From positions 62,001-126,000 of the forward strand of contig WHVA01000160.1 of assembly GCA_015179125.1 (NCBI GenBank): DNA of 64,000 bases, in the 5' to 3' direction. Below, piece after piece: positions 4,230-26,745 of this stretch. A program made the translations under genes and the position numbers. The notes beneath the pieces were generated by a model. The model made no database searches. It saw only the letters and a list, made by a program, of their open reading frames with translations, and was not told where the DNA came from. Position 1 is the first letter of the stretch; each line of letters begins with the position of its first letter. Source of the DNA: Gautieria morchelliformis. Its lineage: Eukaryota > Basidiomycota > Agaricomycetes > Gomphales > Gomphaceae.

Positions 4230-4456
4230 CCTACGACTGTAGGGTGAGTTCGAGGACGAGTCGTCCCGCGACTCGTCCTCCTGGCTTCAATGAGCCAGGT
4301 TCGGCGTTGGCGCTTGGGTGATCCTGCTCACCCGTGGCCCTTTGTCCTCGTTCTTCGATTCATCGTTGTCGAATGAGACCTTGCCCGTGGGGCTCACCTC
4401 GTTTCCCTTGCGAATCGTCCCTGGGCTCGAGAAGTCCAGGGTTATGCCGAATCTCC

Positions 4457-5266: not shown

Positions 5267-5371
5267 CCGGGCCGTCTCGAAGAGCTGCTCTATTGATCTG
5301 CTCTCGGTATTATAGCCCTGTTTGAGGACCTCGTTGCGCAGCGTTTCGCGCAGCGCCGAAACGAACCGTCT

Positions 5372-7204: not shown

Positions 7205-7247
7205 GCTCGCAGCCGACAGTAGAGGGTCTACTGGAGGGTCTCAACAA

Positions 7248-7556
7248 TGTTTAGTCATCAACGCAGCGATCTTTTTCAAGATTGCTTCGAATCCACGATC
7301 GGTTGGTCGCGTGGCGATCAACGGCAGGATAGTTCAAAAAGGTGTAAAGATGTCGATCTTATGCCTTGTATCACAAGGGCACAGCAGAACTTGACCAATA
7401 TGTGGTATTCTGAATGCTACGTAGTGACAGTGTAAGGGTAAGATGCGATGGGGACCGCTAGCCGGTTCCCATGCATAAACTATACAGTGGGTCCCTAAGG
7501 GGCCCACTGGGATTATGTAATAACTAATGTACATGTAGATACACGGGTTATTTACA
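7248..7556 (-). repeat. 5' LTR of the gypsy element (proposed)
   Basis: On the minus strand the segment starts TGTAAATAACC and ends CTAAACA, giving the usual TG..CA ends. It lies between the gag start at 7204 and the point where copia A coding sequence breaks off at 7557. Length is 309 bp. The bases next to it outside the element are gttga (7557-7561), which would be the target duplication if repeated at the unseen end. No convincing tRNA-complementary primer site was found just inside the LTR, so the inner edge is less certain than the outer. Confidence 0.55.
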
Positions 7557-8083
7557 GTTGAACATCGAAATGCTTTGATCTAGCGTGATAAGAAGGGTCT
7601 TTGATGATGGATATCATACCCATGTTGTCGCTTTGAATACACGTGGCGTGTTTCTGCTCGTGGCCAAGGAGGTTTAGTAGGTTCCGTAGCCTTACGGCCT
7701 CCTTTGCAGTGTGGCACGCTGAGGAGTACTCAGCTTCACAGCTGGAAGTAGTTATAGAAGCCTGTTTCTTCGAGCTCCAAGTTATGGCGCCACCTCCTAG
7801 GAAGAACGCGTAGCCCGAGACAGACCTTCTACTGTCAGACTCGGAGGCGTAGTCCGAGTCAGCAGAGCCGGTAAGCGTGATGGACGGGCAGATGCCCCCG
7901 AGAACGAGGCGGTGAGTGCGAGTGGAGTTGACGTATGTGAGGACATGTTTCACAGATGCCCAGGGTTGATCGAGAATTGTGACAGGCAATTTACTGAGAA
8001 CGTGATATCAGGTCACGTGCACATGGAAGTGTACATCATTGACCCTATGGCGGCACGGTAAGGAACGCGGGACATGATAGCGA
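7557..8083 (-). CDS. Copia A pol, last part (RNase H)
   Basis: This stretch holds the end of copia pol: LTGSADSDYASE, WSSKKQASITTSSCEAEY and HARSKHFDVQ are the RNase H signatures of copia elements. It is the part of copia A pol displaced from 13343 by copia B. It ends at the gypsy LTR edge. Confidence 0.85.
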
Positions 8084-8581
8084 TGTTGGGTGCATTTATG
8101 CTCCTGCACCAAAATCAAGCATAATATATCCAATTTGTTGTGTGGCCTTCCAATTTCTTCTCACATTGCTCTTGTATTATGCATCCATTTCTCTGGTTAT
8201 TTTCGAAATTTTCCACTCATTCCTTATCTCTCTATTTCATCTTGTTATTCCTACTTTCACAAGCGGCTGCACCCAGCGGAGTCTGAAATGACTTCGACGC
8301 GCGAGCTCTTGGGCGCTAAAGGGCCGGGTAGTAGTACATGCGCAGTGGAACACATTTCCCCCTCTCTCAGTGACCACTAAATTCACTGAGAGAGGCAAGT
8401 AAATTAGTCTAGTAGTCTTTGCATTTATTAACCTAGAAATGCTCTGTAGTGAATTGATTTCTAGGTAGTGTATAATATATTTATAGTGACCACTAAATTC
8501 ACTGAGAGAGTGAATTGATTTCTAGTCTATTCTTTTGAATAACAAGTCCATACCTACTGCCTATAATTCCTGTCCTCTACA
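8084..8581 (+). repeat. 5' LTR of copia B
   Basis: 498 bp, TG..CA ends. It contains an AT-rich tract with TATAATATATTTATAG near 8470 and two copies of a gtgaccactaaattcactga motif. The first copy is part of a strict hairpin at 8361-8395. Confidence 0.95.
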
Positions 8582-8595
8582 GGGTTATGGGCCCC
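8582..8595 (+). other. Primer-binding site of copia B, containing the gag-pol ATG
   Basis: Directly after the LTR the plus strand reads GGGTTATGGGCCC. It is complementary over 13 bases to GGGCCCAUAACCC, the anticodon stem-loop of initiator Met-tRNA as known in many eukaryotes. The ATG at 8587 used by the long frame is the complement of the CAU anticodon, so primer site and start codon coincide. Confidence 0.75.
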
Positions 8596-11500
8596 GGAGA
8601 CACTTCTGAGAAGCTATTGGGTGTTGAGAAGCTTGCTACTGATGGAAGTAATTGGCCATTGTGGCGAGCTACTCTCATCAGCTATTTCGAGTCCAAAAAT
8701 CTACTCAAGCATGTAGAAGGGAGAGTCACTCGACCTCCTGATCCTCCAGTCATGCCCCCAGGCCATATTCTAACAGAAGCTGAGGAAACTCAGATGGATA
8801 AGGCCGAGGAGAAGCTGGAGAGATACCTTGCTAGAGAAGGACAAGCCAAGACCCAAATCATCGTCTCAGTGTCAGAGTCATTAGCCCTGATGCTACAGAA
8901 GCAGAAGACAGCAAAAGAGACTTGGGATGCACTGGTCAATGAAATGACCAAAAAGCCCAAGATGGTCCTCACCAGCCTGCAGAGACAACTCCGCAGTATG
9001 AGATGTCCTGAGGATGGAGACTTGAGAGATCATTTGGACAAGGCCCAAGACCTATATGCTCGTCTTAATGAGATGGGAGCCAGAGTTTCCGAAGAAGAAT
9101 TCATGGACATCATCCTTGCATCACTTCCACCATCCTATGAGGCAGTCATGAACGCCCTTACCACTTCGCTTGAAGAATGCGGGATGCCATTGGTCCCTGA
9201 TAATATTATTAGGGTACTAAAGGCTCAGTATGACAGGAAGAAAACACTCCCGCAAGAAGAGCAGGTGTTTATTGGTTCATCTACTAAGAAGGACCAGAAG
9301 GGGCAGAAGGCGCATGTATGCACCAACTGCAAAAAGCCTGGACATTCCATCGAAAATTGCTGGGCTAAAGGAGGTGGTAAAGAAGGTCAAGGACCACGTC
9401 AGAAGAAGAAAGCCAAAGGCAAGAAGAAGAAGAAGGGTAAAGCAAAAGCGAATGTTGCCGAAGAAGAGTCTACTTCTGAGGAAAGTGGTGATGGGCATCT
9501 TGCCTTCACCAATTTCGACGAGTGCTCTAATTTCAATTTGAGCACATCCTCAGGAGTTATAGTTATACTCGACACCGGAACGACATCGCATATGACTCCT
9601 CACAAAAATTTATTGAGGAACTACTGTCAATTCTCACAGCCGAGGACTATCCGAGCAGCCAACAAAGGTACCTTTGATGCCTTCGGCTCAGGACTGCTCG
9701 TATTATCCAATAAGGTTGGAGATAGAACAGTAGAAGTCACGTTGCAAGATACATACTATGCACCCAAAATTGCTGCTACCCTCGTCTCGATCGGTCGGTG
9801 CGATGATGCTGGCTACGACATTCGACTCGGTGGCCAGAAATGCACAATATCTAATGCTGCTGGAAAAGTATTGATGCAAGCACCGAAAGTCAATGGCTTA
9901 TATCGACTAGACCTCCAGTCACCAAGTGCTCAAGCCCATATGTGTTTATCTGCCATGGAAATTCATCAAAAGATGGGGCACATCTCGCAGAAGTCCCTAC
10001 AACATCTATTAAATCATGGCATGATATTGGGCATTGAACTGAGCTCCACAGGCGATAGAATTGTCTGTGATGCGTGTATTCAGGCCAAGATTGCGCGCAA
10101 ACCTCTTCCTCGAGAACCCAGAGACCGAACATCAAAATTCGGTGACAGAATTTATTCTGATGTCTGGGGACCTGCAAGACACCTCACGATCGATAAGAAG
10201 TCATATTATGTCTCCTTTATCGATGATTACTCAAGAGAATCGGTGATCTATCTCATGGCGAACAAATCAGAAGCATTCTCAAAGTACAAGCTCTACGAGG
10301 CTTTAATGCTTCGACAGAGAAATGTGCACATCAAGGCACTTGTTTCTGATCGAGGGGGCGAGTATACGAGCTCTGAATTCGAACAGCATCTAGCCAAACA
10401 AGGCACGAAGCATCAGTTGACGGTACACGACACACCAGAGTCCAATGGTGTTGCGGAACGCTTGAACCGAACTCTCACTGAGAGAACTCGTGCCATGCTG
10501 CTAGAATCAGGCCTTCCTAAGATATTATGGGGCTATGCGATACAGCATGCCAATTATCTTAGGAACAGGACGCATACAAGAGCTCTACCAGATAAAACGC
10601 CCTACGAGATGATTCACCATGAAAAACCGAATCTCAAAGACATTCACGCGTGGGGAACTGAAATTTACGTTAAAATCACTCAGGGAGATAAATTGGCAGC
10701 TCGTGCCAAGAGAGCTCGGTGGATAGGAATTTCTGCGCAGAGCCATGGTCATTATGTTTATTGGCCTGACTCGCACAAAGTTTCTGTCGAGCGGAATGTT
10801 GTGTTTGATTCAGAGATGAAGAAGGGAAAGGTCCCAATCATTTCTATTGAGGAATCCAAGCTACCTACGTCTAAAGAAGAGAAGAAGGCCATTCCGGCAT
10901 CAGTGCCTGTGCCCGGTCGCTTAGTCAGCGAAGAGGCAAAGATCGAAGAAATTGATGAAAGTGCACCGGAGGAATATCTTGAAAAGCTGCAACCTATTCA
11001 GGGAGTTGATGACAGACCTAGAGAAGCTGAACCGATAAGGAGAAGCGAAAGGATCCGTCAACAACAAGTGCAGCCGGCCCCATCAGGTCCCGTAACAAGA
11101 TCTCAAACCCAGAGACAAGCTGGCGCACATATGACTACGCTAGCTTACGAGGACGTTGAGGACCATAAAGAAGTTTTATTCGACCAAGAATTATCCTCCG
11201 AGATTGATGGCATCAGTAGCTATGAGTGTGCCATCAGTGCGTTTCTAACCGACGGTCAAAACAATAACAAGGCGCCGGATTTGAGTCAAATTGAACCTAG
11301 CAATGCAGACGAAGCTCTGAATAATCCTATATGGAAGAAATCAATGGACAAAGAGTATGAGGCCCTAATCGACAAGGGAGTGTGGGAACGAGCCAAACCA
11401 CCTCCTGGAGCCAATATTGTCGGTAATAAATGGGTCTACCTTTGGAAGCGTAATCCAGAAGGGAAACCAATAGTACCTAAATCGAGAATGGTCGCCCAAG

Positions 11501-12831
11501 GCTTCACACAGAAGTTTGGAGTCGACTATGATGAGACATACTCACCTGTTGCTCGGTTATCCTCCCTACGGATCATATGCGCCATCGCTGCTAGGAATGA
11601 CTGGCCTATCCATCAAATGGACGTAGACTATGCATACCTCAATGCTACGTTGCCCGAACCTATTTACATGAAGCAGCCGTATGGATATGAGTCTGGAGAC
11701 AAAGGCGAAGTGCTACTTTTGAAGAAAGCACTCTACGGCCTCAAGCAATCTGGAAGAGAATGGTATAAACGTCTAAGTGGTGAATTCCACAAGTTAGGAT
11801 TCACTACGTCAGCCACAGATGGGGCTGTATTTTATAGACGTGGCGGAAAGGGGCATGTGATCATTGCAACAGCTGTGGACGACCTTACCATCACAGCTGA
11901 GAATCAATCAGTCCTGGACGAAGTCAAACGAGATCTTGCTCAGGTCTTCAGTATGAAAGATCTAGGCGAGATTCATTGGCTATTGAATCTCAAAATCGAA
12001 AGAGACTGGCAGAAGAAGACCATTGCAATTTCACAACCTGCATACATCGAGAAGATCATCAAAAAATTTAATCTCGAAGATGCAAAGACTTATGCTACGC
12101 CTCTTGATCCAGCCGTAAAATTATCTAAAGACCAATGTCCTTCTACAGAGAGAGGCAAGAAAGCCATGTCGAAGTTTCCATACAGGCAAGCTATAGGATC
12201 ACTGATGTGGGCGGCTGTAGCCACTCGACCTGACATTGCATTTGCGGTGTCATTACTCTCGCAATTCCTTGAAAATCCAGGTGGCACACACTGGAATGCA
12301 GTCAAACGTGTCTTCAAATATTTGAAAGGCACGAAGCATTACAAGCTCACACTTGGAAGAAATCAAGACGGCTTGATAGGGTATTCAGATGCGGATTGGG
12401 GTTCACAGAGTCATAGGCGTTCGTATTCGGCATACTTATTTCAGATTGATGGAGGCACTGTTTCATGGAGTTGCCAGAAACAGTCGATAGTAGCCCTCTC
12501 ATCAACTGAAGCCGAATTCGTCGCCCTGACCCATGCGGGCAAAGAGGCTCTTTGGATGCGCCATTTTATTTCTGAAATATTCCAACCACTGAACAGACCC
12601 ATCCAAGTTTATTCAGACAATCAATCAGCCATTGCCATCACGTATGGCACCCAACAACACACGAGAACCAAGCACTTCGACATCCGATTATATTTCCTTC
12701 GAGATATAATCAAAAATCAACAAGCCAAGCTCGTTTATTTGCCAACCGAACAAATGTTGGCAGATATCCTCACTAAAGGACTTCCCAGTCCTAGAGTGAA
12801 GATTCTCAACGAGCAAATCGGAATATATTAA
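8587..12831 (+). CDS. Copia B gag-pol polyprotein
   Basis: One open frame of 1414 residues. Gag occupies about residues 1-240. A CCHC knuckle (CTNCKKPGHSIENC) is at 245-258. The protease strand LDTGTTSHMT begins at 328. The integrase zinc head is around 460-500 and the DDE core spans about 525-625 (YSDVWGP, VSDRGGEYTS, NGVAERLN). Reverse transcriptase is around 930-1180 with AVDDLTI at about 1095, and RNase H runs from about 1260 (YSDADWG). Gag and pol share one frame, as in Drosophila copia, so their ratio is presumably set by splicing or processing rather than frameshifting. Confidence 0.95.
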   Translation: MGPGDTSEKLLGVEKLATDGSNWPLWRATLISYFESKNLLKHVEGRVTRPPDPPVMPPGHILTEAEETQMDKAEEKLERYLAREGQAKTQIIVSVSESLALMLQKQKTAKETWDALVNEMTKKPKMVLTSLQRQLRSMRCPEDGDLRDHLDKAQDLYARLNEMGARVSEEEFMDIILASLPPSYEAVMNALTTSLEECGMPLVPDNIIRVLKAQYDRKKTLPQEEQVFIGSSTKKDQKGQKAHVCTNCKKPGHSIENCWAKGGGKEGQGPRQKKKAKGKKKKKGKAKANVAEEESTSEESGDGHLAFTNFDECSNFNLSTSSGVIVILDTGTTSHMTPHKNLLRNYCQFSQPRTIRAANKGTFDAFGSGLLVLSNKVGDRTVEVTLQDTYYAPKIAATLVSIGRCDDAGYDIRLGGQKCTISNAAGKVLMQAPKVNGLYRLDLQSPSAQAHMCLSAMEIHQKMGHISQKSLQHLLNHGMILGIELSSTGDRIVCDACIQAKIARKPLPREPRDRTSKFGDRIYSDVWGPARHLTIDKKSYYVSFIDDYSRESVIYLMANKSEAFSKYKLYEALMLRQRNVHIKALVSDRGGEYTSSEFEQHLAKQGTKHQLTVHDTPESNGVAERLNRTLTERTRAMLLESGLPKILWGYAIQHANYLRNRTHTRALPDKTPYEMIHHEKPNLKDIHAWGTEIYVKITQGDKLAARAKRARWIGISAQSHGHYVYWPDSHKVSVERNVVFDSEMKKGKVPIISIEESKLPTSKEEKKAIPASVPVPGRLVSEEAKIEEIDESAPEEYLEKLQPIQGVDDRPREAEPIRRSERIRQQQVQPAPSGPVTRSQTQRQAGAHMTTLAYEDVEDHKEVLFDQELSSEIDGISSYECAISAFLTDGQNNNKAPDLSQIEPSNADEALNNPIWKKSMDKEYEALIDKGVWERAKPPPGANIVGNKWVYLWKRNPEGKPIVPKSRMVAQGFTQKFGVDYDETYSPVARLSSLRIICAIAARNDWPIHQMDVDYAYLNATLPEPIYMKQPYGYESGDKGEVLLLKKALYGLKQSGREWYKRLSGEFHKLGFTTSATDGAVFYRRGGKGHVIIATAVDDLTITAENQSVLDEVKRDLAQVFSMKDLGEIHWLLNLKIERDWQKKTIAISQPAYIEKIIKKFNLEDAKTYATPLDPAVKLSKDQCPSTERGKKAMSKFPYRQAIGSLMWAAVATRPDIAFAVSLLSQFLENPGGTHWNAVKRVFKYLKGTKHYKLTLGRNQDGLIGYSDADWGSQSHRRSYSAYLFQIDGGTVSWSCQKQSIVALSSTEAEFVALTHAGKEALWMRHFISEIFQPLNRPIQVYSDNQSAIAITYGTQQHTRTKHFDIRLYFLRDIIKNQQAKLVYLPTEQMLADILTKGLPSPRVKILNEQIGIY

Positions 12832-12844
12832 GCTTGAGGGGGCG
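12832..12844 (+). other. Polypurine tract of copia B
   Basis: GCTTGAGGGGGCG lies between the stop of gag-pol and the 3' LTR. This is the usual place and base composition of the plus-strand primer in LTR elements. Confidence 0.6.
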
Positions 12845-13342
12845 TGTTGGGTGCATTTATGCTCCTGCACCAAAATCAAGCATAATATATCCAATTTGTT
12901 GTGTGGCCTTCCAATTTCTTCTCACATTGCTCTTGTATTATGCATCCATTTCTCTGGTTATTTTCGAAATTTTCCACTCATTCCTTATCTCTCTATTTCA
13001 CCTTGTTATTCCTACTTTCACAAGCGGCTGCACCCAGCGGAGTCTGAAATGACTTCGACGCGCGAGCTCTTGGGCGCTAAAGGGCCGGGTAGTAGTACAT
13101 GCGCAGTGGAACACATTTCCCCCTCTCTCAGTGACCACTAAATTCACTGAGAGAGGCAAGTAAATTAGTCTAGTAGTCTTTGCATTTATTAACCTAGAAA
13201 TGCTCTGTAGTGAATTGATTTCTAGGTAGTGTATAATATATTTATAGTGACCACTAAATTCACTGAGAGAGTGAATTGATTTCTAGTCTATTCTTTTGAA
13301 TAACAAGTCCATACCTACTGCCTATAATTCCTGTCCTCTACA
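12845..13342 (+). repeat. 3' LTR of copia B
   Basis: Same length and ends as the 5' copy and essentially identical to it. It follows directly after a purine-rich tract and the end of the gag-pol frame. Identity between the two LTRs is the usual clock for insertion age. Confidence 0.95.
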
Positions 13343-16147
13343 AGCGATCTCCTCTGGACGAGTAGGTGATTGATCGGATGAGAGGGTTTTCGCATCCACG
13401 GTTAGGGGGGTCCAGACAGGGTAGGCGGTGTCAAGGTTGAAGCGCTTGACAATGTAGGCCGTCTGGCTCAGTGAAATGGTTCTCGCGGTTCGGTTGCGCA
13501 CGATCTCGATCCCTAGCATCCAGCGCATATCGCCTAGGTCGGTGATGTCAATTTCAGCTCGTAGATCGTGAATGATCGAGTCCATTTCTGCAACAGTGCT
13601 GGCAGTCGCAGCCATATCATCTGTGTGGATCATGAGGATGGATTTTCCGAGCTTAGTGGAGCGGCTGTAGACACAATGGTCGACGGGATTCCGAACGAAG
13701 TGGTGAGCGACCATCGCTTTGCCTAAGGTTTTATTCCATTGCCGGCCAGATTGTTTAAGGCCGTATAAGCCTTTTCTCAGTCGACACACGTGGTTCTCGT
13801 TGCCCAGGGTGATACTACCCTCAGCCTGCTCCATATAAATCTCCTCATCTAGCTCAGAGTGAAGGAAACCTGTTTTAACCTCCAGTTGGCGTATTTCCCA
13901 GTTGAGAGAGGCGGCTAGGGATAGGACCAGGCGGAAGGATTCCAGGCGAGCAACGGGTGAGAAAGTGTCATGGTAGTCTTGACCTGGAACCTGAGTAAAA
14001 CCTTTTGCGACGATTAGGACTTTTAGCTTGGCCATTTTACCAGATTCGTCGCATTTGATGTGACAGACGGTCTTACTCTTGATAATCTTTTTGCCAGTAG
14101 GAACAGAGCTTCGAGGGACAAGGTCCCATACGTGATGTTTTTGCATGGACTGTAGCTCGGAGTCCATGCCTAGTTGCCACATCGGACCGTTTGGGCCTTT
14201 GAGGGCTTCTGTGAAATATGTGGGGTCCTCGTCCTCATGAACGATGCCGGCAAGTGCCATATCCTCAACGAAGTTAGCCTCGAGGTCAGCGTTCCTTTTT
14301 GCAGCTTGTGCGAGTCGTGCTATGGTGGTAGCAGAAGTGATTTTGGCGACGGCACGCTCGGTGCGGCTGGTGTAGGGAATGTGTCTCATGGCAGCGCCCG
14401 CAGCTGATGGTTTTGGTACACGCAAGGAACGGCGTGGTAGTTGGTCAATCGTGGTCGGTTCAGGAAGATCGGTTTCAACACCCTCCGTTTCACCAGTCTC
14501 ATTTTCAACACCCTCTGGGGCCTCAACCTCCAATTCCTCCTCTGACTCTCCCTCGCCATCCAGTACACCCTCTCCGTGAGGACCCTCAGCTCCCCCTCCA
14601 TCCACGCTGCCATTGTTGTGACTGTAATCCATGTCGTGGTCACTTCCGCTGTCATCGGTTTGGTCTCCGACTACAAGGCCAGGGTGAAGTGGTCGAGGGG
14701 TGTCGTCCTTAGATTCGATGAACGTAACATTCCGAGACATTATGATCTGACCAGTAGTTCGGTTGTAGCACCGGTATGCCTTAGAGTTCAGTGAGTAGCC
14801 AACTAGTATGCACTCAATTGAACGGTTGTAGATCTTCGCGACGTGGCGGTTTTGGATTAGTACGAACGCCCTGCATCCGATTTCTCGTAGATGCGAAACG
14901 TCGGGTTTCTGACACGTCCAGGCCTCATAAGGGGTCTTATTGTTGAGGGCCTTAGTGGGGGTCCTATTTTTGAGGTATACAGCTGTTAGCACACATTCAC
15001 CCCATAGGGTAGGAGGGAGCTTTGCGTCAGATCGGATTGCTTGCGCCCTCGACATGAGAGTACGGGGGCTCCGTTCAACAATGCCGTTCTCGGCGGAGGT
15101 ATATGGTGCTGTAAAGAGGTGTTGTATACCCTGGTTGAGGAGATATCTCTCATATAGCTTAGATGTATATTCGCCACCGTTGTCAGTGACAAATTTCTTG
15201 ACAGCACGACTGGATTGGCGTTCGACCAGCGCTAGCCATTCTGTGAATGCGGTGACGGCGTCACTCTTTTTGGCAAGTAGATAAGTCCAAGTCAGTCTGG
15301 AGTAGTCGTCTATGAAGTTTAGGGCATAGAATTTTCCACCGGCGGGTACATCCTCGGGCCCGGTGATGTCAGAGAATACGATGTCTAGGATACCCTTGGC
15401 TCTCTCACCCTCACATATCTTTGGTACCGACACTTTTGTCTGCTTCCCGAGGATACAATGTTCACAGGTTGGCGGTATGGAAGAGAGGTCGGTAGGCATA
15501 CCTGTAGCCATGCGTTTCTTTGCCATAGCAATGATCGAGGGGTAATTGACATGGCCAAGGCGCCTGTGCCAGGTTTCGAGACTAGCGGGGGCTCTCGCAA
15601 GGTTAGCATAAGCTTGGGCTGATGAGGTTGTCGGGATATGATATAGACCGCCATACACTCTAGTGCCCTTAAGCCTCTCTTCCTTCTGCTGATCATATAC
15701 GTGGCATTGGTCTTTGGAAAAGACCGAGACGTAGTCATCATCGTCACCGAGCTTGCCTACGGACATGAGTCTTATGGTGGCATCGGGGACGTAGAGGACT
15801 TGTCGCAATGTAAGGGATTTTCCGCTTAGCGTAGTCATTTTAACGTCTCCTACACCGATGGCTTTGGCAACGGAACCGTTCATTCCTTTGATGGGACGAG
15901 GTTCGATTTGCACAAGCTTGGTGAAGTCATCTCTGCATGGGGTGCAGTGAATGGATGCGCCGGAATCAAGGAATCGAGGGATGGGACCCATCGACGCGAG
16001 TACTGATTCAGGCGCACCAGCAGTCCCATGTTGATGTGCTAGCCAATCGATACTACATGCGGCGTCAGTTTCTTCCGTACACGCAAAAGACCAGTCGTTC
16101 TCGTAGAGGTGATCATCTTGCTGGTAAAAGGTTATTGGACGGGACAT
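13343..16147 (-). CDS. Copia A pol, first part (protease, integrase, reverse transcriptase)
   Basis: Copia order is clear: protease strand FLDSGASIHC, integrase head and core (WHRRLGHVNY, FVTDNGGEYTS, ENGIVERS), then reverse transcriptase (VKTGFLHSELDEEIYM, MIHTDDMAATAS). An acid-rich linker separates integrase from reverse transcriptase. The frame is cut by insertion of copia B at 13342/13343. Confidence 0.88.
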
Positions 16148-16180
16148 TGCAGACGTAGCGGAGGATGCAATGTTGGCTGA

Positions 16181-17146
16181 TTAAGTTTTAGTCTTAGTCT
16201 CCCCCGCAACGTTGGCATCGGCAGCGAGAGCGGCATCCTTCTCCTTCTTTGCGCGTGCGCGTGGGCCACCACCTTCGTCACCACCACCGGGATCCCAACG
16301 TCTTTCCTTCGAGTGGCCAGGCTTGTTGCAATTCGCACAGGTAACTCTGGAGGAGGGTTTTTTGGCGGTGACAGCAGCGAGGGCTTCCTCAGCAGCGATA
16401 ACCTGATTAGCATGGTGGACTTTAGAGGCCCCGAAACGAAGGCGAGCTTTAAGTCCGTAGAATGTAATGCCGTCCTTGGTAGAAGTGAGGATACCTTCGA
16501 GTTGCTCACGGATCGGGGTAAAGAAGTCGTGGGAGAGGGTGTTCAAGCAGATAATGATCATCCAGTCGTCCTCCTTGATTGGACCGGTGGCAAACATGTC
16601 TTTCATAGTGTGCTCAAGTGCAAGAAGGGTGACGTTGATATCGATGCCTGGGGAGAAACGAGTGGAGAGCGCACATTTGAGTAGCGAGACTTGATGCATC
16701 GGGCCCAGCATAGAGAAGGATTCACGGACTTTGCTCCATGCGGCGGACGCAGTAGTACAGCCAGCTATGACATGGTGGAGTGATGGGTCCATCATTAGCT
16801 GAATGGTGAAGACGAGTGTGGTGTCCTTCGCAATCCAGAGGTCTTTTTTAGACGGTTTGGTGTCAGGAGGGATGGTCGAGCAAGGATCGTGTGCATCAAA
16901 GTATTTCCATAACCCACTAGTAGCAAGAACAGCTTGGGCTTCGCTGGCCCAGGACTCATAGTGTTCACCACCCAGGAGAAGCTTGGACATTTTGGGGCGA
17001 GCCCAGTTCTCAGGGATGAAGGAAGTGATAGAGGACGTCATGAGGCGGAAGGAAAGGAAAAAAACGTTTATATGCGCTGTCAGTGGAGGTAGGGATGACA
17101 GAAAAAGAACGGTCTCGGATATTTCCTGCACGTATGGATGCTTCAC
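16181..17146 (-). CDS. Copia A gag
   Basis: A 321-residue frame whose body matches the UBN2/gag-polypeptide pattern of copia elements: LLGGEHYESWASEAQAVL near residue 55, then a long helical stretch. Its C-terminal part has a CCHC-knuckle region (CANCNKPGHSK) followed by a basic tail. It starts about 25 bp inside the primer-binding site. Confidence 0.8.
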   Translation of the reverse strand: MKHPYVQEISETVLFLSSLPPLTAHINVFFLSFRLMTSSITSFIPENWARPKMSKLLLGGEHYESWASEAQAVLATSGLWKYFDAHDPCSTIPPDTKPSKKDLWIAKDTTLVFTIQLMMDPSLHHVIAGCTTASAAWSKVRESFSMLGPMHQVSLLKCALSTRFSPGIDINVTLLALEHTMKDMFATGPIKEDDWMIIICLNTLSHDFFTPIREQLEGILTSTKDGITFYGLKARLRFGASKVHHANQVIAAEEALAAVTAKKPSSRVTCANCNKPGHSKERRWDPGGGDEGGGPRARAKKEKDAALAADANVAGETKTKT

Positions 17147-17170
17147 AAGGATATTAGGAGTGCAGCGGTA

Positions 17171-17182
17171 GGCCCATAACCT
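17171..17182 (-). other. Primer-binding site of copia A (initiator tRNA half)
   Basis: The plus strand reads GGCCCATAACC, which is the anticodon stem-loop of eukaryotic initiator Met-tRNA (CAU anticodon). The minus strand is therefore complementary to it. Drosophila copia and Ty5-type elements are known to prime from a 5' half of this tRNA cut in the anticodon loop. Confidence 0.7.
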
Positions 17183-17184
17183 AT

Positions 17185-17429
17185 TGGAGTCTGCACTGCA
17201 TTAGGCTCAGACGTTCAGAGTGGCATGAACGACTGTGTATTACCTGCACTGCGTTAGGCTACAGTGCGAGTAAGTAATTGGTAAGATAGGGAAGTACTGA
17301 CTGAGCTTTCTTACCTCAGACGTTCAGAGTGGCATGAACGACTGAGGAGAGAAGCGGAGATGTGGAATCTGAACTATATGGACTCAGTCTGTGTGGGTCC
17401 ATATAGACGAACCACATCGAACTCCAACA
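17185..17429 (-). repeat. 5' LTR of copia A
   Basis: On the minus strand this 245-bp segment starts TGTTGGAG and ends AGACTCCA, so its ends are TG..CA with short inverted symmetry (TGTTGGAGT/ACTCCA). It is placed two bases from a primer-binding site (17171-17182) and upstream of gag. The partner LTR is outside the window, so ends are inferred from the TG..CA rule and the primer site. Confidence 0.6.
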
Positions 17430-17439
17430 CATTCCAGCC

Positions 17440-18090
17440 TTACACCCGTTTGCAGTACCTAAGGTGCGCGTCGGATTTGCTTCCGTTTTAGCGCGCAAAC
17501 TTCGAACAACGATATCTTGCTTGATATCGCTCCGATTCGCTTGAAATTTCATATCTGAAGCTATGTGGACCATAGCTAGGGCATAGAACTAAAAAATCCG
17601 AATAAAACAAGCATTTTTTATTTTGCATTTTGGGTGCTGAGGGGGGAACAATGTCAAGCTTAGCTTACTGTATGTAGTTCAATGCAGGTTTTAATTTTGT
17701 TTGATACTTTGTACTAATGGTGAGAACCCACTACAGGAGAATCTCCAGAAGAGGGTGTCATAGGATTGGAGAGGAAGGGCTTAGCTTCTTCTGACATTGG
17801 ATCAGTGAGATCTGACGGTAGGCGTTCATTCTCGATGTCGGATTTCCTCCTGTGTAGCATAAGCCCCGAAATCTTTCATCCCTTCCGCACCGAGTGCCAA
17901 TGCACCATAAGGCAACTTCGCCGATCCTGACACGTTCTTGAGCTCGGAAACCGCGGGGGCGCACACGTATGCGGTGGGGTGAGGGGCGCGGAGGTGCTGG
18001 GGTGGGCGAGCTGGTATAGGAGGACGGGGTGGTGGGGGAGTGGGCGGCGGCGGGTGCGGGTGCGGGTGTGGGTGCAGGTACGGGTGCAGG
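17440..18090 (-). repeat. Left inverted arm
   Basis: Read on the minus strand this arm matches 26090-26745 on the plus strand at roughly 95 percent by eye. Shared landmarks are the TTACACCCGTTTGCAGTACC end, the tatcttgcttgatatc palindrome, a T/A-rich stretch and the start of the GC-rich array. It begins only 10 bp from the copia A LTR. A conserved coding-like stretch ([27 protein letters not shown]) reads outward in both arms. Confidence 0.85.
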
Positions 18091-18320
18091 TTGTTACGTA
18101 TCGAGATTTCCGCTAAGTCAGAACTGGAAAGGACAGCGGCTTCAACTTATAGGTTGCACCCCCAATGAACTATCGTCCTAAGTATTTCCCCTGCATGGAG
18201 TCCCCTGGGTGTCAAGGTGTGTCGACACCCCCGCACCCTGCTAACCGTATGCCCAGTCTCCTCACGATGAGCTCCGTGTCGTCCATGCTGCAATCGCACC
18301 CGCACCTGCACCCGTACCTG

Positions 18321-18792
18321 TGTTACGACCGTTCATTTCCGACTTCCGACCCTCAGTTCCGCCACACATTCCGCCCCTCCGATATTCCGCAACACATTCC
18401 GCCCCTCCGATATTTCCGACATTCCGCCCCTTGTACATTTCCCTTGTTCTTTCGACTCTATTACTCGGACCCACCGGACCCGCTTCATTGTTCATCAAAA
18501 CCATATATCCGGTCATCCTTGTAGTTCGTTGTCAGATATGTTTTCCCGACCCCTTGTTCTTTGCCATTGTGCTACCTTACCCTGAACCCCCTTGTAGTCC
18601 CATTGTTCCCAATAGTTAGTTCCCACACATTGTCTACTCGACTTCCGCTTCCTCCAGAATTTGCTTAGTACAATACCATTACTTGTTGTTCTGTGCTTTG
18701 TATAAAACCCCCTCATGTATGTCTGTTATTCTGCAATCAGATAATCACCTTCGATACTTGATTTCCTTCGCTCCATCTCCTGTTCTTAGCAC
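18321..18792 (+). repeat. Possible solo LTR
   Basis: The segment starts TGTTACGACCG and could end ..TTAGCACA, with a TATAAAA box near 18700 followed by a short downstream region. That layout resembles a gypsy-type LTR. No target duplication was found and no coding part is near, so this is tentative. Two 31-bp repeats (attccgcccctccgatatt) lie near 18367-18420. A second TGTTACG occurs at 18092. Confidence 0.3.
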
Positions 18793-19348
18793 AGCGAGTC
18801 TAGCAAGATCTCAGTCTCTCCGCCTTCCATCTTCCATGGGGGATACCGGCCCAAACGGCAGCCGGTAGAGGGATGGGAGCGCGGACGTGACACGACTGGG
18901 CTGGCGGCCTTTGAGGCGTGCGAGGGCGTCGCCGCGGTTGGTGTTGCGGTAGCGCGTGGAGGCGTGGGACGTGGCGGTGGTCATCGCGAGGGTGTTGATG
19001 GTAGGAGTGATGGAGCCGCGGTCGGTTGGGGTGCGGGTGGACGACAGGAAGGAACTGCTCGTGCTTGTACGAGTAGAAGGGGCGCTTCAAGTCACAATGG
19101 TGGACTTGTAGTTGGGACGCGTGACAGCCCTTTCAGCGAGGATGTAAAGTAAGCATAAGTAGCAAACTCACCAATAAAAACGGGATAGTGGCCATTCGAC
19201 ACCTGAAAATTACACTTGAGTTGGGGTTCAGCATTGGGAGTAAGGGTGCAAATGCTGTCGCATGATTCATGTCATAGAATTCTTGGTCAGGGTGTGTGTT
19301 TCGGGAACTTCCTTTCTCCTTGTATGTACTACCCACACCATCGCTCAT
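18793..19348. other. Intergenic stretch upstream of the transposase
   Basis: GC-rich sequence to about 19100 has coding-like composition on the minus strand but gives no recognisable protein. The last 200 bp are ordinary AT-richer upstream sequence. No terminal repeat belonging to the transposase alone was seen here. Confidence 0.4.
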
Positions 19349-20554
19349 ATGCCTCGCCCTGGCAACCCTAAACCTGTTCGTCACATGTACAGCAAGGATC
19401 TGCGGGATCGCGTTATACACCAAAAATTCAAGCTCAACAAGAAATCAACCGATATTGCAATTGACCTCGATATGTCACTACGTGTAGTTCAACGCACAAT
19501 CAAACTCTGGCAGGATGTTGGAGACGTCGTGGCAGAGCCAAAGCGGCTATCTCATGGGTCAAAAATGACCTCAGCTCAGAGTGAAGTAAGTAATTCATGT
19601 CTGTGTTTATCTGTAGCTTATTTTATTTTATAACAGTTTCTTCTTGCGCTTCTTGAACGCTCGCCCGATCTTTACCTCGATGACCTTGTCGAAGAGCTAG
19701 AGGTGCAGCATGGTATTTTAGTAAGTATATCAACTGGCTGGAGGACGCTTCGACATCTTGGCTTGCAAAGAAAGAAAGTGAGTCATTAAATCCTCGAAGA
19801 ATGACAACCTTTATATTTGTCTCCAACCCAGCTTTCACGGGCAGCCGCAGAGCGCTGTGAAGCCTCGCGGACTGCTTTCCAGTTTCGTATTGGTAGTGAA
19901 CCACCGGACCGTTTGGGTTTCACAGATGAAAGCGCAATTGACCTTCGCACAACGTATAGACTAATGGGATGGGCTTACAAGGGATGTAGGCCTCGAGTGC
20001 GAGCATGTTTCCAAAGGGGCGAAAGGTAACGATTTGTGCACGGGCCTCCATTATTGTATCGCTAATATCCACTCAGATTTTCAATCCTTCCGGCGCTCTC
20101 ACAAGATGGAATCATCTATAGCCATATCAAATTAGGGGCATACGATGGTCCAGAGTTCCTTGGGTTTCTGAAGGGCCTTTTAGAGGTAATGAACCCTTAC
20201 CCGGCACCACAGAGCGTTCTTGTTATGGATAACTGCGCCATTCACCACATACCTGAGGTCTCACTCTTATGTGCCCAAAGGTTTTTACCATTATAAACTG
20301 GTTTCACTAGTGTCTAATCTTGCATTTGCAGAGGAATCAAACTGATGTATCTTCCGCCATACTCGCCCGATCTCAACCCGATCGAAGAATCATTCTCCTT
20401 CATCAAAGCTCACCTCAGACGTCATGGTGCCGAGTTCCGTGCATGTGTTTCAAGTAAGGAGAGGGCTGAGCTATTCATGTTTCTCTACGAGGCACTGGAT
20501 CGGATTACACGCAGACATGCGCGAGGGTGGATGAAGGACTGTGGCTATCTGTAG
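19349..20554 (+). CDS. DDE transposase, Tc1/mariner-IS630 type, five exons
   Basis: Exons by splice signals: 19349-19585, 19637-19777, 19832-20025, 20077-20280 and 20332-20554, giving about 332 residues. The first exon holds a homeodomain-like helix-turn-helix ([30 protein letters not shown]) that would bind transposon ends. The catalytic triad is complete: [18 protein letters not shown] and [14 protein letters not shown], the usual IS630/mariner DDE boxes. Every junction restores frame, so the gene looks intact. It lies between the two 650-bp inverted arms, whose TA-edged ends fit this superfamily. It could alternatively be a domesticated copy or belong to a smaller element whose ends I could not find. 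Confidence 0.85.
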
Positions 20555-20770
20555 TGCAGTTGTACTACTGTAATGTAATTTTTTTGTTGTCAGAATGTTG
20601 AAAATTATCTGCAATGTGATGGATGATATTGGTAAACAACACTTAGTAGTGCAAAAAGTACTCATTGGCCAATTACGTGCGTCGAGTATCGTAGTATTGT
20701 GATAATTCCTACAGTGGCTACAGGATCTCATAATATTATATGCGTTACATGCAGTCTTTCCCAGCTCATC

Positions 20771-20866
20771 CTCTCTCTTCACCTGTCATTTCCCCCTCCT
20801 CGACTCTCTCTTCACCTGTCATTTCCCCCTCCTCGACTCTCTCTTCACCTGTCATTTCCCCCTCAT
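20771..20866 (-). repeat. 33-bp tandem repeat, about three copies
   Basis: Three near-identical 33-bp units centred on ttcacctgtcatttccccct. On the minus strand they encode an 11-residue repeat (EGEMTGEERVE). They lie in frame with the kinase gene upstream, beyond its first stop. Confidence 0.85.
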
Positions 20867-20993
20867 TAACATAATCCCAACTCTCTGGCAGGTCTGAAAG
20901 AGATTCAAGCCCAATCGTTACATACTGCCTGTATGGCTTGGTGGCCTGTAAAGTGTACTCATCGGCATTCACCTTAACGAAGTCTGGTGTCAG

Positions 20994-23104
20994 TCATTCC
21001 AGAGCAGTCTCCCGAGAAAGCGTTAACCATTGAATCAAGAGTTTGGAGAATGGCTTGAAGCCCGGGGAGAAGTTTTTCACGGCATCCTGTTGCTTTAACC
21101 TATCAAGGAAACTTCCCCTAGCTTGTAACACAGGTAACTCGTCGGAGAGCATCGTTTGACGGTAATTCTGTTCTAGTCGCCCGAGTGCCCCCTTGGTCTC
21201 CAGAATCTCCAGAATCGACCAAAATAAAACCCATATAAACGACTCCAGGTCATCAATTACTTGGTGCACAACTTGCGTTCCAGAGTCCCAAGCAACAATC
21301 AGCGCCTGAGACATGAAAGGCAGCGTACCCTAGAACCATGTAAATCACAAGCCGCACACAGCAACTAAAGACCCACCGAGAGATGCTTTGCTAATTCCCG
21401 CTTCTGATCCATCCAACGAATCGCCTGGTCCCCATCGCATATGAATCCCACACATCTAGTAACTTCTCGAGTCACAGCAAAACTGAAGCAAACATAAAAA
21501 AACGAAAGGACTGATGTGAAAGACGGTACGTACTCTGCCACAGGCGGCCGCTCAGCTTCATCCATCAGCATGACGTTCCCGACGCTTACGTGGTGCAACC
21601 AGCCATTCTTAAACAGCCCAAAATGCCCTGTCAATAACCATTATAGGTAAATCATGTCCGATGCCCTCTTCGTTCACATACCCAACATGGCGTGCACTAT
21701 GCAACGCACGAGCAATGAGGACTTTGTGCAGCTCGCAGTGACGTCCCTCGGGTCTCAAAAACAGATCGCATATGTATTCGTTCGTCAGGCCTAACCCCGG
21801 CGTATGGCTCTGGCGCACACATGGGCCAATACGTTGCGTCATCAGGTATGAGCTTATCCATTCCGTCCTCGACAGGGTATGAGACAAGGATGTCTGGCAC
21901 TCCAAATCCGCCCGATAACGCTCCAAACATTGTGCCTTCTTCGTTATGGGTTTTCAATGGCCATGAATCTTTCAGAATGACAGTGTCCGGCAAGAGAAAA
22001 GATATGCCTCCCTTCAACCTCAACGGTTCTCGACCGTCAGTCTCTTTTCCAGGCTGAGAATGCGGGGGTTGGTGACTTCGTAAGTTATACCGGTGAGTGG
22101 ACGAAGGTTGAGCGGGAGAACCATCGGTGGCAGTTCATCTTCAAACCCAATTGTTAACTACTGGCCCAGATCTCTAAACGTCAAAACGCACCCTTCTTGA
22201 CCAAAAGATACACACGCGTTGCTCGTCCGCGAACGCAACGTCAGTCACAAAGTGTTTTCGAAATCTTGAATATACCCCTCTGGGAATCGCAATGTCTGTG
22301 ATGGTACGAGTAGTATCGATTCCAGCGTGGTTTGTGTCGGTCCAAGAATTAATCCCAACCACTCCGCGGACAAATCCTTTAAAGCCTCCCTCCTTTGAGA
22401 GGTCAAGTTCCGGCGTAACAACCAGACCCATGCGAGAATAAAATCCGAAGCGCACCCCCATCGTTGCGTTGTTGAAATGGATAACAGTGACGAAGAGTCT
22501 ATCCAATCAGTGTGTGAACATACAGCGCGCGTACGTGCTTGACTGCAGGATCAAACCAGGCCAGTTATTCTTCACCTCTATGCAAATTTCAGCCTCGTTC
22601 CATGAGAGCTTCGGCTTCGAGCCTCGGCTCTCACCAACAGACTGACAACCAACAAGGTCTGGTTTTAGGGGGGAGTCTGTGTCAAGTCCTTCAGCCATTT
22701 CCGACCGTTCACGTAAAACTGAAGACCTCGGTGGATATTGCCATTCGGCAGCTTTTGGGAGGAGATGGACAGAATCTTGTTGAGTAACCACTCCAACGGC
22801 GCATAATGAGCGCTTTCTGGACCAGTGCGGCTGGGCCATTCCTTGAAAGTGTCGGTTGGGCTGTCCCAGAACACGCCAGGTTTCAGTTTGGATAGGACAG
22901 CGTCGACAATTTTTTGATCCGCCCGACAGCGCTCTTCAAGCAGAGAATTACTCTGAATATCGCACCGGAGAACTCGCCCTTCATCAGCTTTTTCAAATCA
23001 TCCTGGGTCCGAATGTGTGATTCATGAGATTTACTGGAACTGGCGCTATATGGTGTGCTCGTCATCAACGGAAGCTTGAGAGATTGGGGCGGTGTTGATG
23101 GCAT
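20994..23104 (-). CDS. FunK1-family protein kinase-like gene, catalytic loop altered
   Basis: Multi-exon minus-strand gene of the fungal-specific FunK1 family. Landmarks in order are MPSTPPQSLK at 23104, AEICIEVKNNWPGL (22600 region), GGFKGFVRGVVG, VVKDSWPLKTHNEEGT-like sequence near 21960, HKVLIARALHSARHVGYVNEEG, the catalytic-loop equivalent WLHHVSVGNVML near 21590, GFICDGDQAI near 21440, LPFMSQALIVAW (21310) and DDLESFIWVLFW. In active members the loop reads HRD(I/V)S. Here the Asp is absent, so it is probably catalytically dead or decaying. The junction near 22960 also does not splice cleanly by eye. In-frame sequence continues past the TGA at 20994 to 20766. It lies inside the inverted-arm segment. 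Confidence 0.7.
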
Positions 23105-23412
23105 CTGGAATAACAAATATCGAGAATTAGAGGCAGACAACAAGTAAAGAACTATGTTGTGCGAGTCTGAGAGGCAGAGCTGTTGTCAACATGCGGACAA
23201 GTCACGTGACAAGTGAACCATCTACATTCTTGCGGTGTGTTGGTGGTAGCGGCCTCAAGGTTAAATACCAATAATGTGCCGTGCGCTGCCTCAGACGGTA
23301 CTAAGGCCGCCGATCTCAAATATCCATAATTCTCTAAATTGTTCTTTTTGATGTATATAGTAAATCTAATTATTGTGTCCTACTGGCATAATTCTGCTTG
23401 CCTCCCTCCCTC

Positions 23413-25096
23413 TCACACCTTCTTAGCAAGCTTCCTTATAGCCTTTCTAGCCGCTCCTTTGATGAAATTCGCGTCACCCCATGACATCCCGATGTTGGCC
23501 ATGAGCACATCAGCCGTCACCTCCTTCAGTTCGTTTAGGAAGTAAACGTTGTTTGCTTCAAATTTACCTTTGAATTCGTCAATGTTCCGCCCCCTAGCCT
23601 CAGGCCAATTACGGACATCGTCAAGAAACTCTTCGATGCTTGGGTAAGCGATGTCACCGGGAGTCGCAGGGGTCAACTGTTCCGGTCTCTTGTCAGGATT
23701 GACTGGAGTAACAGGGCGGTTCAGGACCATGTTCTGAGCAAACATTCGATAGTCAATTGGTGGGAACATCATCATAGGAAATGATCCTTGAAGACCCAAT
23801 GCAGCGCCGGGCAGGTTCGCCGTTGACCCTTCATCGGTCTTCTCTTTTTGAATGGAGTCTTTGCGATAATGGAAATCTTCGAAGTGAGCGTTGTTTGGAG
23901 GAACTTTCAGAGTGACCCCGTGAATGTTAGAAACCTAAATTCGCATTATTAGCAGCGAGTAATACATATAAATGCAAAGGTTGTACTCACCAAGGCTGTT
24001 ACCCAGGACTGGAGTTGGCACCATGATAAATGCGTGTGCTCTCCGTTCTTATTCAGTTTGCAGACTTTTGAAGCACATGCCGGTTTGCCACAGTTTGAAT
24101 ACTCTGCCTTCAACGCCTCCATGAAATCCCTTTCCCGTTTTGTCGGTAGGCCATGCTCTTCGATCTCAGATCCTTCAGTGTCAGAATCGGCGTTCAAGTC
24201 CTGAATACGAGCTTTCTTCTTTTTGCCCCTGCCAGCTGCATTTGTCACAGTTTTGTCCCTTTTCCTGGAAAGTGTATGCCGAAGCGATGCGATGTACTAT
24301 AATTCTTATAATATCAGATGCGGCTGCCATGCGAAGTCACACGCACACGTACACTTTCATCCAGAACGATGTCTACTTCCACGCCACTGGCATCGCCCTT
24401 TTTCTTCCTTGCCTGAGCGCCCTTCACATCATCCTTGAGGTTGTCCCAGTCCTCTTCTTTTGCCAGTTTCGAAAGGTGTTTATCTCGCACACCTTTGAGC
24501 CGGTAAGCTAGGTGCGGCATCTTTTTCACTGTTTGATAGCACCCTATCGCTTTGAAGATACGTTCCTCGACCTTCTTGTAACTGACATTGGCAGGAAGCT
24601 TCACACGCTCAACAAACCCTTCGGCTTCAGTGCCGTCCGGAACACGCAAGATAATTACTAGGCCGTGAAATGAGCATCAAATTATAAATGAAAAATATGA
24701 TGGCATACCAGGTTCATCAATATCCTTTACCTGTTTGGGAACTGCCACCTCTACTAACTCTTCAGACTCTGAGTCTCGATTAGGGTCGTTGGGCTCGGCT
24801 TCGGACTCGGATGCACTTTGAGCCGGCTGGGTCTCTTCCTCATATGAAGACCCTGACTCAGATTCTAAGTCTTCAAAAGTTACTTTTTTTGCCGCCTGAC
24901 GTTGCGGTCGAAAAGTGCTAGTAGTTTGAACAGATTCTAAATAACTGGTGAGCTTGAAATAGCATCATTATATATAAACCGACCTTTCCCTGAATTCCCG
25001 CTATGTCAGGTAACAGTTCCTCTGGAGGTTCTTTGACCTTTTTCGTTGCTCGTGTTGACTTGGTGGGGGCTGTCTTTTATTTTTGTTATTTCCCAT
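23413..25096 (-). CDS. Unrecognised Lys/acid-rich protein with possible SAM-like C-terminus
   Basis: Minus-strand multi-exon gene. I infer introns at about 23935-23990, 24265-24350 and 24660-24710 from GT..AG boundaries. The N-terminal part is basic then acidic (KSTRATKKVKEPPEEL; repeated Ser-Glu runs near 24760). The middle has KLPANVSYKKVEERIFKAIG and a basic run RGKKKKARIQDLN. A segment with several Cys and His (CGKPACASKVCKLNKNGEH) may bind zinc. The C-terminus (YPSIEEFLDDVRNW .. NIGMSWGDANFIKGAARKAI) has the length and helix pattern of a SAM domain. No function is known to me. The start at 25096 is provisional; coding-like sequence also lies further upstream. Confidence 0.5.
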
Positions 25097-25348
25097 TGTT
25101 GGTAAGGCAAGTCGAACTTGGTCGGGTTATGCCGATTCATAATAGGCGGCTTGCCGCGCTGCACCATCGACAACACCACGCACCACAGACACTTCAGCCT
25201 CTCTTGGTTCGGCACTCGTCTTCCATATGAACTTGCCCCGGGCTTCGAAGCATCCGCTGACCCTGTTCTTCAATCGCGCCTTTTCGCTTAGCTCCACAGG
25301 CTTGCCGTCAAGTACCAGCAGCTCCCTGTCAACTCCCCCATAACCCCA

Positions 25349-26471
25349 GTGGCCAACTTCCGTGAGTATCCCGCCCGTATTCCTCATACCAGGGTGTCTG
25401 ACCACTCGACTCCCGCAGAGCGCCACGGCCCAGGCACATTCGTGTCCCAGGGCACGTGTACCTGCACCCGCACCCGCCGCCCCGTTCCCCCACCACCCCT
25501 CCTCCTGCACCAGCTCGCCCACCCCAGCACCTCCGCGCCCCTCACCCCGCCACGTACGTGTGCGCCCCCCGCGTCCTTCGCGTCGTCGCCCAACCTGTCC
25601 CCGCACCTGCGCCCGTACCTGCACCCGCACCCGCACCCGCCCCCCCCGCTTCCCCACCACCCCGTCCTCCTACACCAGCTCGCCCACCTCCGCCCCCGCG
25701 TCCTTCGCGTCGCCGCCCAACCTGTCCCTGCACCCGCACCCGCACCTGCGCCCGTACCTGCACCCGCACCCGCACCCACACCCGCACCCGCCGCCGCCCG
25801 CTTCCCCACCACCCCGTCCTCCTACACCAGCTCACCCACCTCCGCCCCCGCGTCCTTCACGTTGCCGCCCAACCCGTCCCTGCGCCCGCACCCGCACCCG
25901 CCGCCGCCCGCTTCCACCACCCCGTCCTCCTACACCAGCTTGCCCACCTCCGCCCCCGCGTCCTTCGCGTTGCCGCCCAACCCATCCCTGCACCCGCACC
26001 TGCACCCGCATCTGCACCCGCATCTGCACCCGTACTTGCACCCGCACCCGTACCTGCACCCGCACCCGCACCCGCACCTGCACCTGCACCCGCACCCACA
26101 CCTGCACCCACACCCGCACCCGCACCCGCACCCACCACCACCCGCTCCCCCACCACCCCGTCCTCCTATACCAGCTCGCCCACCCCAGCACCTCCGCGCC
26201 CCTCACCCCACCGCATACACGTGTGCCCCGGTGGTTTCCGAGCTCAAGAACATGTCAGGATCGGCGAAGTTGCCTTATGGTGCATTGGCACTTGGTGCGG
26301 AAGGGATCAAAGATTTCGGGGCTTATGCTACACAGGAGGAAATCCGACATCGAGAATGAACGCCTACCGTCAGATCTCACTGATCCAATGTCAGAAGAAG
26401 CTAAGCCCTTCCTCTCCAATCCCATGACACCCTCTTCTGGAGATTCTCCTGTAGTGGGTTCTCACCATTAG
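25349..26471 (+). CDS. Pro/His/Arg-rich open reading region, coding status doubtful
   Basis: All three plus-strand frames stay open for over 320 residues here because the DNA is built of CACCCG-like units, so openness alone proves nothing. In favour of coding is the non-repetitive end: [17 protein letters not shown] and [20 protein letters not shown] read outward, and matching stretches are kept in the left arm with mostly conservative changes. No homologue is recognised. Confidence 0.25.
25436..26150. repeat. GC-rich minisatellite of about five units
   Basis: Units start with CCACCACCCCGTCCTCCTAC at about 25490, 25665, 25807, 25916 and 26150, spaced 110-235 bp. Between them are runs of CACCCG hexamers. 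The left inverted arm carries only about 100 bp of the same material, so the array has expanded or contracted after the arms arose. Confidence 0.85.
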
Positions 26472-26745
26472 TACAAAGTAGCAAACAAAATTAAAACCTG
26501 CATTGAACTACATACAGTAAGCTAAGCTTGACAGTGTTCCCCCCTCAGCACCCAAAATGCAAAATAAAAAATGCTTGTTTTATTCGGATTTTTTAGTTCT
26601 ATGCCCTAGCTATGGTCCACATAGCTTCAGATATGAAATTTCAAGCGAATCGGAGCGATATCAAGCAAGATATCGTTGTTCGAAGTTTGCGCGCTAAAAC
26701 GGAAGCAAATCCGACGCGCGCCTTAGGTACTGCAAACGGGTGTAA
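26090..26745 (+). repeat. Right inverted arm
   Basis: Inverted partner of 17440-18090. Sequence similarity stops abruptly at 26745 (..GGGTGTAA), mirroring the stop at 17440, which argues for a real end. On the inner side the similarity fades into the CACCCG-rich array, which is much longer on this side. Confidence 0.85.

Follow-up and report, generated by a model that had tools for sequence, protein, structure and literature searches.

What moves, if anything, in a stretch of fungal DNA where long inverted ends enclose a transposase gene together with a kinase gene and a gene of no recognised family? The locus that raises this question lies at positions 17440-26745 of a 64,000-nucleotide stretch of the basidiomycete Gautieria morchelliformis (assembly GCA_015179125.1, contig WHVA01000160.1, positions 62,001 to 126,000), which we call the window. 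A prediction made from the letters of the window (the original prediction) proposed an oversized, cargo-carrying member of the IS630/Tc1/mariner superfamily, or else two copies of a dispersed repeat that happen to face each other. Searches of the whole source genome (122 Mb, 1113 contigs) lead us to conclude that the window holds one copy of a large fungal DNA transposon family, whose members, about 100 in number, measure about 8-10 kb, and that its transposase, FunK1-type kinase and charged-protein genes almost certainly form a mobile multi-gene unit.

The predicted arms of about 650 bp with sharp outer ends were borne out: each is 652 nt long, they are 96% complementary and 8,002 nt apart, and the outermost letters read TTACACCC on the left and GGGTGTAA on the right. 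The outer 25-mer, searched with up to 3 mismatches, matched the genome 265 times (133 forward and 132 reverse), and the reversed-pattern control gave 0 + 0. Interior markers of 26-30 nt, also with up to 3 mismatches, were found 106 times for the transposase, 96 times for FunK1 and 99 times for the charged protein, with controls at 0. Places are listed for 100 of the 265 ends (all perfect matches), for 100 of the 106 transposase markers and for all FunK1 and charged-protein markers, and the fractions that follow refer to these. Neighbouring ends less than 25 kb apart formed 16 pairs, the window's included; all 16 face inward, with no other arrangement, and an element gene lies inward within 9 kb at 78/100 ends and outward at 0/100. 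The FunK1 marker sits 0.3-3 kb downstream of the transposase marker, in the same orientation, at 77 of 100 places, and an opposite-strand FunK1 marker occurs within 7 kb at only one. The charged-protein marker lies 2.5-7 kb from the transposase marker at 59/100 places and 1.8-6 kb from the FunK1 marker at 74/96.

Seventeen further inward-facing pairs were examined in full. Their lengths run from 5.2 to 14.5 kb, they share the outer ends of the window element bar single changes in C360 and C1045, and all have an interior of the window type, two with large deletions. The window interior from 18835 to 25130 is common to all 17 at about 94-98% identity in long matches, with a few short or rearranged stretches falling below that range. 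Both deleted copies keep good ends and the transposase gene; C158 has lost the charged-protein gene, and C226 has lost it together with the opening portion of the kinase gene. Inner segments are inverted in C233 and C360, and the longer copies hold insertions. The original prediction had expected a real element to show outer ends in inverted pairs with a transposase between them, and random orientation otherwise; the former is what the genome holds. The chance meeting of two dispersed repeats, to which the 22 of 100 listed ends lacking an inward interior marker within 9 kb would lend some colour, is next to impossible when all close listed pairs face inward, no listed end has a gene outward and 18/18 pairs enclose the same interior, two of them with deletions; we regard that alternative as excluded. 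The proposal of an oversized, cargo-carrying element is supported. The multi-gene unit is real and belongs to a family, but the supposed passengers are constant genes of that family: the FunK1 and charged-protein genes recur as parts of the unit, convergent with the transposase gene. Cargo captured individually and differing by copy was rejected, the interior being constant in 18 pairs apart from insertions, inversions and deletions.

Within a single copy the two arms are 94.7-99.5% alike over the outer 430 nt in 17 of 18 copies; those of C360 are only 80.1% alike, and its right arm is interrupted. Arms so nearly alike suggest either that most copies are young or that the arms are kept alike. 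A 17-nt repeat in the arms (367 nt apart, 82%) was considered as a candidate second transposase-binding site and set aside, since it may be chance. Two copies, at C156:69661-78488 and C448:385973-395611, have nearly identical flanks, as would result either from duplication of the locus or from two insertions into the same site of a repeat.

The transposase gene of the window is complete, as had been claimed. Its five exons, separated by GT/AG introns, read without a stop (DDE_3, 2.2e-26), and the protein scores 146.7 bits against NCBIfam NF033545 transpos_IS630, for which the cut-off is 100. The catalytic residues are D158, D242 and E277, with a D242-E277 spacing of 34. The gene carries no stop, indel or splice-site change in 7/18 copies, the window's included, and six of these seven hold all three catalytic motif strings, C1045 being without one; in C321, C360, C433 and C233, insertions or inversions remove part of the reading from the pile-up. 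A diverged IS630-type transposase lies elsewhere in the genome (L064, C551:75250-76750), 49% identical counting intron columns and with introns at the same two places within the part compared; no kinase tail was seen in the next ~770 bp at this one locus.

The TA noted at each edge by the original prediction is indeed present. It sits, however, within a TTAA target, and the element proper is most likely 17443-26742, starting CACCC, with the TA duplicated outside. The edges of 18/18 pairs read TTAC...GTAA. Paralogous empty sites read TTAA and filled sites T-TA-[CACCC...GGGTG]-TA-A, with uninterrupted TTAA relatives found by flank comparison for C158 (L013, computed) and for C671 (L049, from flank letters), and a one-sided TTAA relative, L020, for the L038 end (from flank letters). 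We compared the joined flanks of 18 copies with 64 sequences, using a query that itself contained TTAA; the letters counted are the subjects' own. The joined flanks of C158 matched 6 distinct places, of which four are exactly TTAA, one is TTAA with an extra A, and one has a 2-base gap and is still TTAA; those of C671 matched 10 places, with TTAA in 10/10. The other 16 joined flanks gave no junction-spanning match among the 64 sequences. These include those of the window copy, which is flanked on the left by the edge of a multi-copy repeat beside a Ty1/copia-like gene and on the right by sequence with different relatives. Genome-wide, the inner 24-mer has 131 exact matches, and T precedes TA in 129; the two exceptions carry G, as a TTAC target would give. 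Across 59 outer flanks there is no consensus beyond a mild A/T preference. The element thus inserts at TTAA in all but rare cases, which is most simply read as a duplication of TA, the flanking T and A being part of the target.

A target this strict invites comparison with piggyBac, which inserts at TTAA and duplicates the whole of it. The likeness ends with the target: the element edges here are TTA...TAA and the transposase is of the IS630 type. A piggyBac assignment was rejected, TTAA not being duplicated in any of the 18 pairs. More broadly, the mover could be something other than the IS630-type gene, for instance an enzyme within the charged protein with a piggyBac-like TTAA habit. That the target is nearly strict and that the charged protein matches no Pfam family would suit this idea, which we nevertheless judge improbable, as filled sites read TTA...TAA rather than TTAA...TTAA, the two deleted copies without the charged-protein gene retain the transposase, and the TA centre is the target described for IS630/Tc1/mariner enzymes (PMC2170065). 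On the sequence evidence, it appears highly probable that the unit's own IS630-type transposase moves it and that TA is duplicated in the process.

What, then, of the other two genes? The identification of a FunK1-type kinase holds for the family but not for an intact gene in the window. PF17667, with a cut-off of 24.1 bits, matches pieces of the C610 copy at 28.7 and 24.6 bits, while a third piece stays below the cut-off at 20.6, and the best six-frame match in an element copy reaches 39.9 bits (C535). The lysine motif VILKDSW is present in 18/18 copies, HRD[VI]S in 14/18 and DG[DN]QA in 13/18. In the window the kinase gene has one base fewer than most copies at five places and the HRD string is not present; its frameshifts are either decay or sequencing error, which look the same here. 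Perfect 33-bp tandem repeats at 20771-20864 code for an acidic repeat at the kinase C-terminus, in a region whose length varies among copies. The charged protein was found as described, with 16% K+R and 14% D+E over 370 spliced amino acids, and had no Pfam match and only chance-level sequence matches in PDB. Of the 16 copies in which its last exon is present, 11 show neither an indel nor a stop there. Two of its exons, folded without an alignment, gave a mean predicted local distance difference test (pLDDT) of 44.7 and 56.5, too poor for a fold search. The exon borders of both genes are our reading of open frames and splice motifs.

Selection was gauged in 18 copies over 333 transposase, 445 charged-protein and 285 kinase codons, a rough test given that the copies share ancestry. 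With the three genes pooled, variants found in at most two copies had an amino-acid-changing to silent ratio (N/S) of 282/114, which equals the neutral expectation of about 2.5, and variants found in three or more copies had a ratio of 30/25 (Fisher p = 0.019). Private variants being neutral and shared variants poor in amino-acid changes, it appears that copies drift after insertion and that the spreading lineages are constrained as a whole. The constraint applies to the pooled genes, and the kinase alone gives no significant signal.

We lean slightly towards both extra genes being useful to the element. It is also conceivable, though we hold it to be somewhat doubtful, that an ancestor once captured both genes as passengers, which have been inherited since without use to the element. 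The neutrality of private variants in the pooled genes, the broken kinase of the window, the existence of internally deleted copies, the lack of significant constraint on the kinase by itself and the IS630-type transposase of C551, which has no kinase tail in the ~770 bp behind it (one locus), are all in keeping with mere inheritance. They must be set against the near-equal numbers of kinase (96), charged-protein (99) and transposase (106) markers, the retention of HRD in 14/18 copies and the scarcity of amino-acid changes among pooled shared variants. Against the 6 other FunK1 loci compared in this genome the kinase is only 24-57% alike, in short matches whose E-values reach 1, so it is not a recent capture of any one of those six.

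Taken together, an autonomous multi-gene transposon of the IS630/Tc1/mariner type is the best overall explanation and in our view a likely one. We suggest, by homology, that the transposase would bind the long ends, cut the element out at CACCC and insert it at the TA within TTAA, duplicating that TA, a cut-and-paste route proposed by analogy with the bacterial ISY100. The kinase and the charged protein might then work on behalf of the element, for which control of the transposase, or of host repair or silencing, is the most likely means; of this step we are less certain.

Several observations weigh against this explanation. The 22 marker-less ends are one; several of them lie at contig ends (C400 position 45, C629 position 44 and C71 position 12457 of 12951) and another is on C141, where the element is 14.5 kb long, and those remaining may be deleted, rearranged or single arms. 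At C981:1125-22127, an inward-facing pair of ends 21 kb apart encloses two markers each for the transposase and for FunK1, all pointing inward; we doubt that this is one element and consider that it may be two in head-to-head arrangement or an inverted duplication, and it makes plain that not every facing pair is one simple element. The deletions in C158 and C226, if they are older than the insertion of those copies, would make the extra genes dispensable in cis. A reading without duplication, in which ACACCC...GGGTGT lies between TT and AA, matches the letters of the empty sites equally well. Finally, the departure from neutrality is not significant gene by gene (N/S of 9/7 for the transposase, p = 0.13; 8/9 for the charged protein, p = 0.057; 13/9 for the kinase, p = 0.63), and shared variants reverse the trend in one charged-protein exon (5/1) and in the last kinase piece (7/2).

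Membership of the IS630/Tc1/mariner superfamily is seen in the DD34E transposase of the IS630 family, the terminal inverted repeats of 18 pairs and the TA at the centre of the target. The element differs from familiar members in its length of 8-10 kb, its 650-bp ends, its two further genes and the TTAA-type edge in 129/131 exact ends. IS630 itself reportedly prefers the TA in CTAG, another four-base target with a TA centre. Bacterial ISY100 targets TA almost exclusively, with duplication of the TA (PMC2170065). The view that members of this superfamily normally carry only a transposase proved too strong, since the TBE elements of Oxytricha, a Tc1/mariner group, also carry a kinase-domain gene (PMC4724952). 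The likeness is in the presence of such a gene. TBE elements differ in being ciliate, in having telomeric repeats in their ends and an ANT target duplication, and in a length of about 4 kb, calculated from copy number and total length; neither the telomeric end repeats nor the ANT duplication is found here, where the ends read TTACACCC... and the target is TTAA. Our element would join the ciliate TBE as a second IS630/Tc1/mariner case in which a kinase gene is a constant component, so that a role for such kinases becomes testable.

Fungi also harbour Starships, giant cargo elements with a tyrosine-recombinase captain gene at one end. Long inverted ends and an IS630-type enzyme place our element elsewhere, although no search was aimed at a captain gene. 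Its kinase is like FunK1 (PF17667) in a Pfam match over the cut-off and in an HRDxS active site that includes the serine described for FunK1 (PMC3203195); it differs in being transposon-borne and, from the six FunK1 loci compared, in sequence. No FunK1-carrying transposon was found by title or start of abstract in a literature search that took in few subscription papers and lay outside the repeat databases, in which a catalogued entry may exist.

FunK1 kinases are specific to fungi; the family has undergone lineage-specific expansions, a tie to multicellularity has been hypothesised for it, and it has been called one of the least understood expanded kinase families of fungi (PMC3203195 and PMC6001611). 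A profile search of the genome gave 118 FunK1 matches, clustered into 79 loci, of which the element accounts for 36, a second multi-copy unit for 13 and other places for 30. Most element copies are missing from those 118 matches, and a few of the 30 others, which are among 43 non-element loci, may be element fragments. Setting the 96 element copies counted by DNA marker beside the 43 other loci counted by profile, two methods that differ, about two thirds of the FunK1 loci seen are transposon-borne, with intactness counted in 18 copies. Where such elements are left unmasked, an apparent expansion in FunK1 gene counts may therefore be the copy number of a transposon, and our results suggest that a kinase family commonly regarded as consisting of ordinary host genes can be multiplied by jumping genes. 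A bolder idea, which we offer as speculation and think rather unlikely, is that FunK1 genes belong, at least to some extent, to transposons, that the kinase and charged partner of this IS630-type element control transposition or disarm host silencing in parallel with TBE, and that elements of this sort account for a share of the puzzling FunK1 expansions seen in complex fungi. The second multi-copy FunK1 unit is represented by L063 (C305:18000-22500) and occurs at 13 places including itself, the others being 89-96% alike over 1.2-4.5 kb. No DDE_3 was found among the matches listed on C305, C332, C207, C257 and C482, and a description of this unit as another IS630-type kinase element was not adopted on the strength of those five contigs.

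Table 1. Parts of the window copy of the element (positions are those of the window)
Feature	Position	Strand	Remarks
Left terminal inverted repeat	17440..18091	+	96% complementary to 26094-26745; outer T-TA is target
Stretch largely private to the window copy	18092..18835		Insertion, partly common to the C360 copy
IS630-family DD34E transposase, 332 amino acids	19349..20554	+	DDE_3 PF13358 2.2e-26; NCBIfam transpos_IS630
Transposase exons	19349-19585, 19637-19777, 19832-20025, 20077-20280, 20332-20554	+	GT/AG introns, no stop
FunK1-type protein kinase gene, ~2.3 kb, several exons	20766..23104	-	PF17667; frameshifted in the window copy; borders approximate
Charged-protein gene, at least 4 exons (last 23416-23934)	23413..25096	-	Open frames; start codon inferred
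C-rich tandem repeats (GCACCC-type, 108/152-bp units)	25460..26155		Adjoin and overlap the right arm; vary among copies
Right terminal inverted repeat	26094..26745	-	Outer TA-A is target

The stretch next to the left arm that is largely private to the window copy contains an inverted 137-bp piece of the element at about 18184-18320. Outside the element, a stack of retroelements at 925-17430 adjoins it. The stack comprises open reading frames at 925-7240 on the minus strand that we take, from their motifs, to be Ty3/gypsy-like, and two polyproteins at 8539-12831 (plus strand) and 13322-17200 (minus strand) that are presumably Ty1/copia-like by the same token. The edge of the multi-copy repeat on this side, probably a long terminal repeat, ends at about 17430, 9 bp from the transposon.

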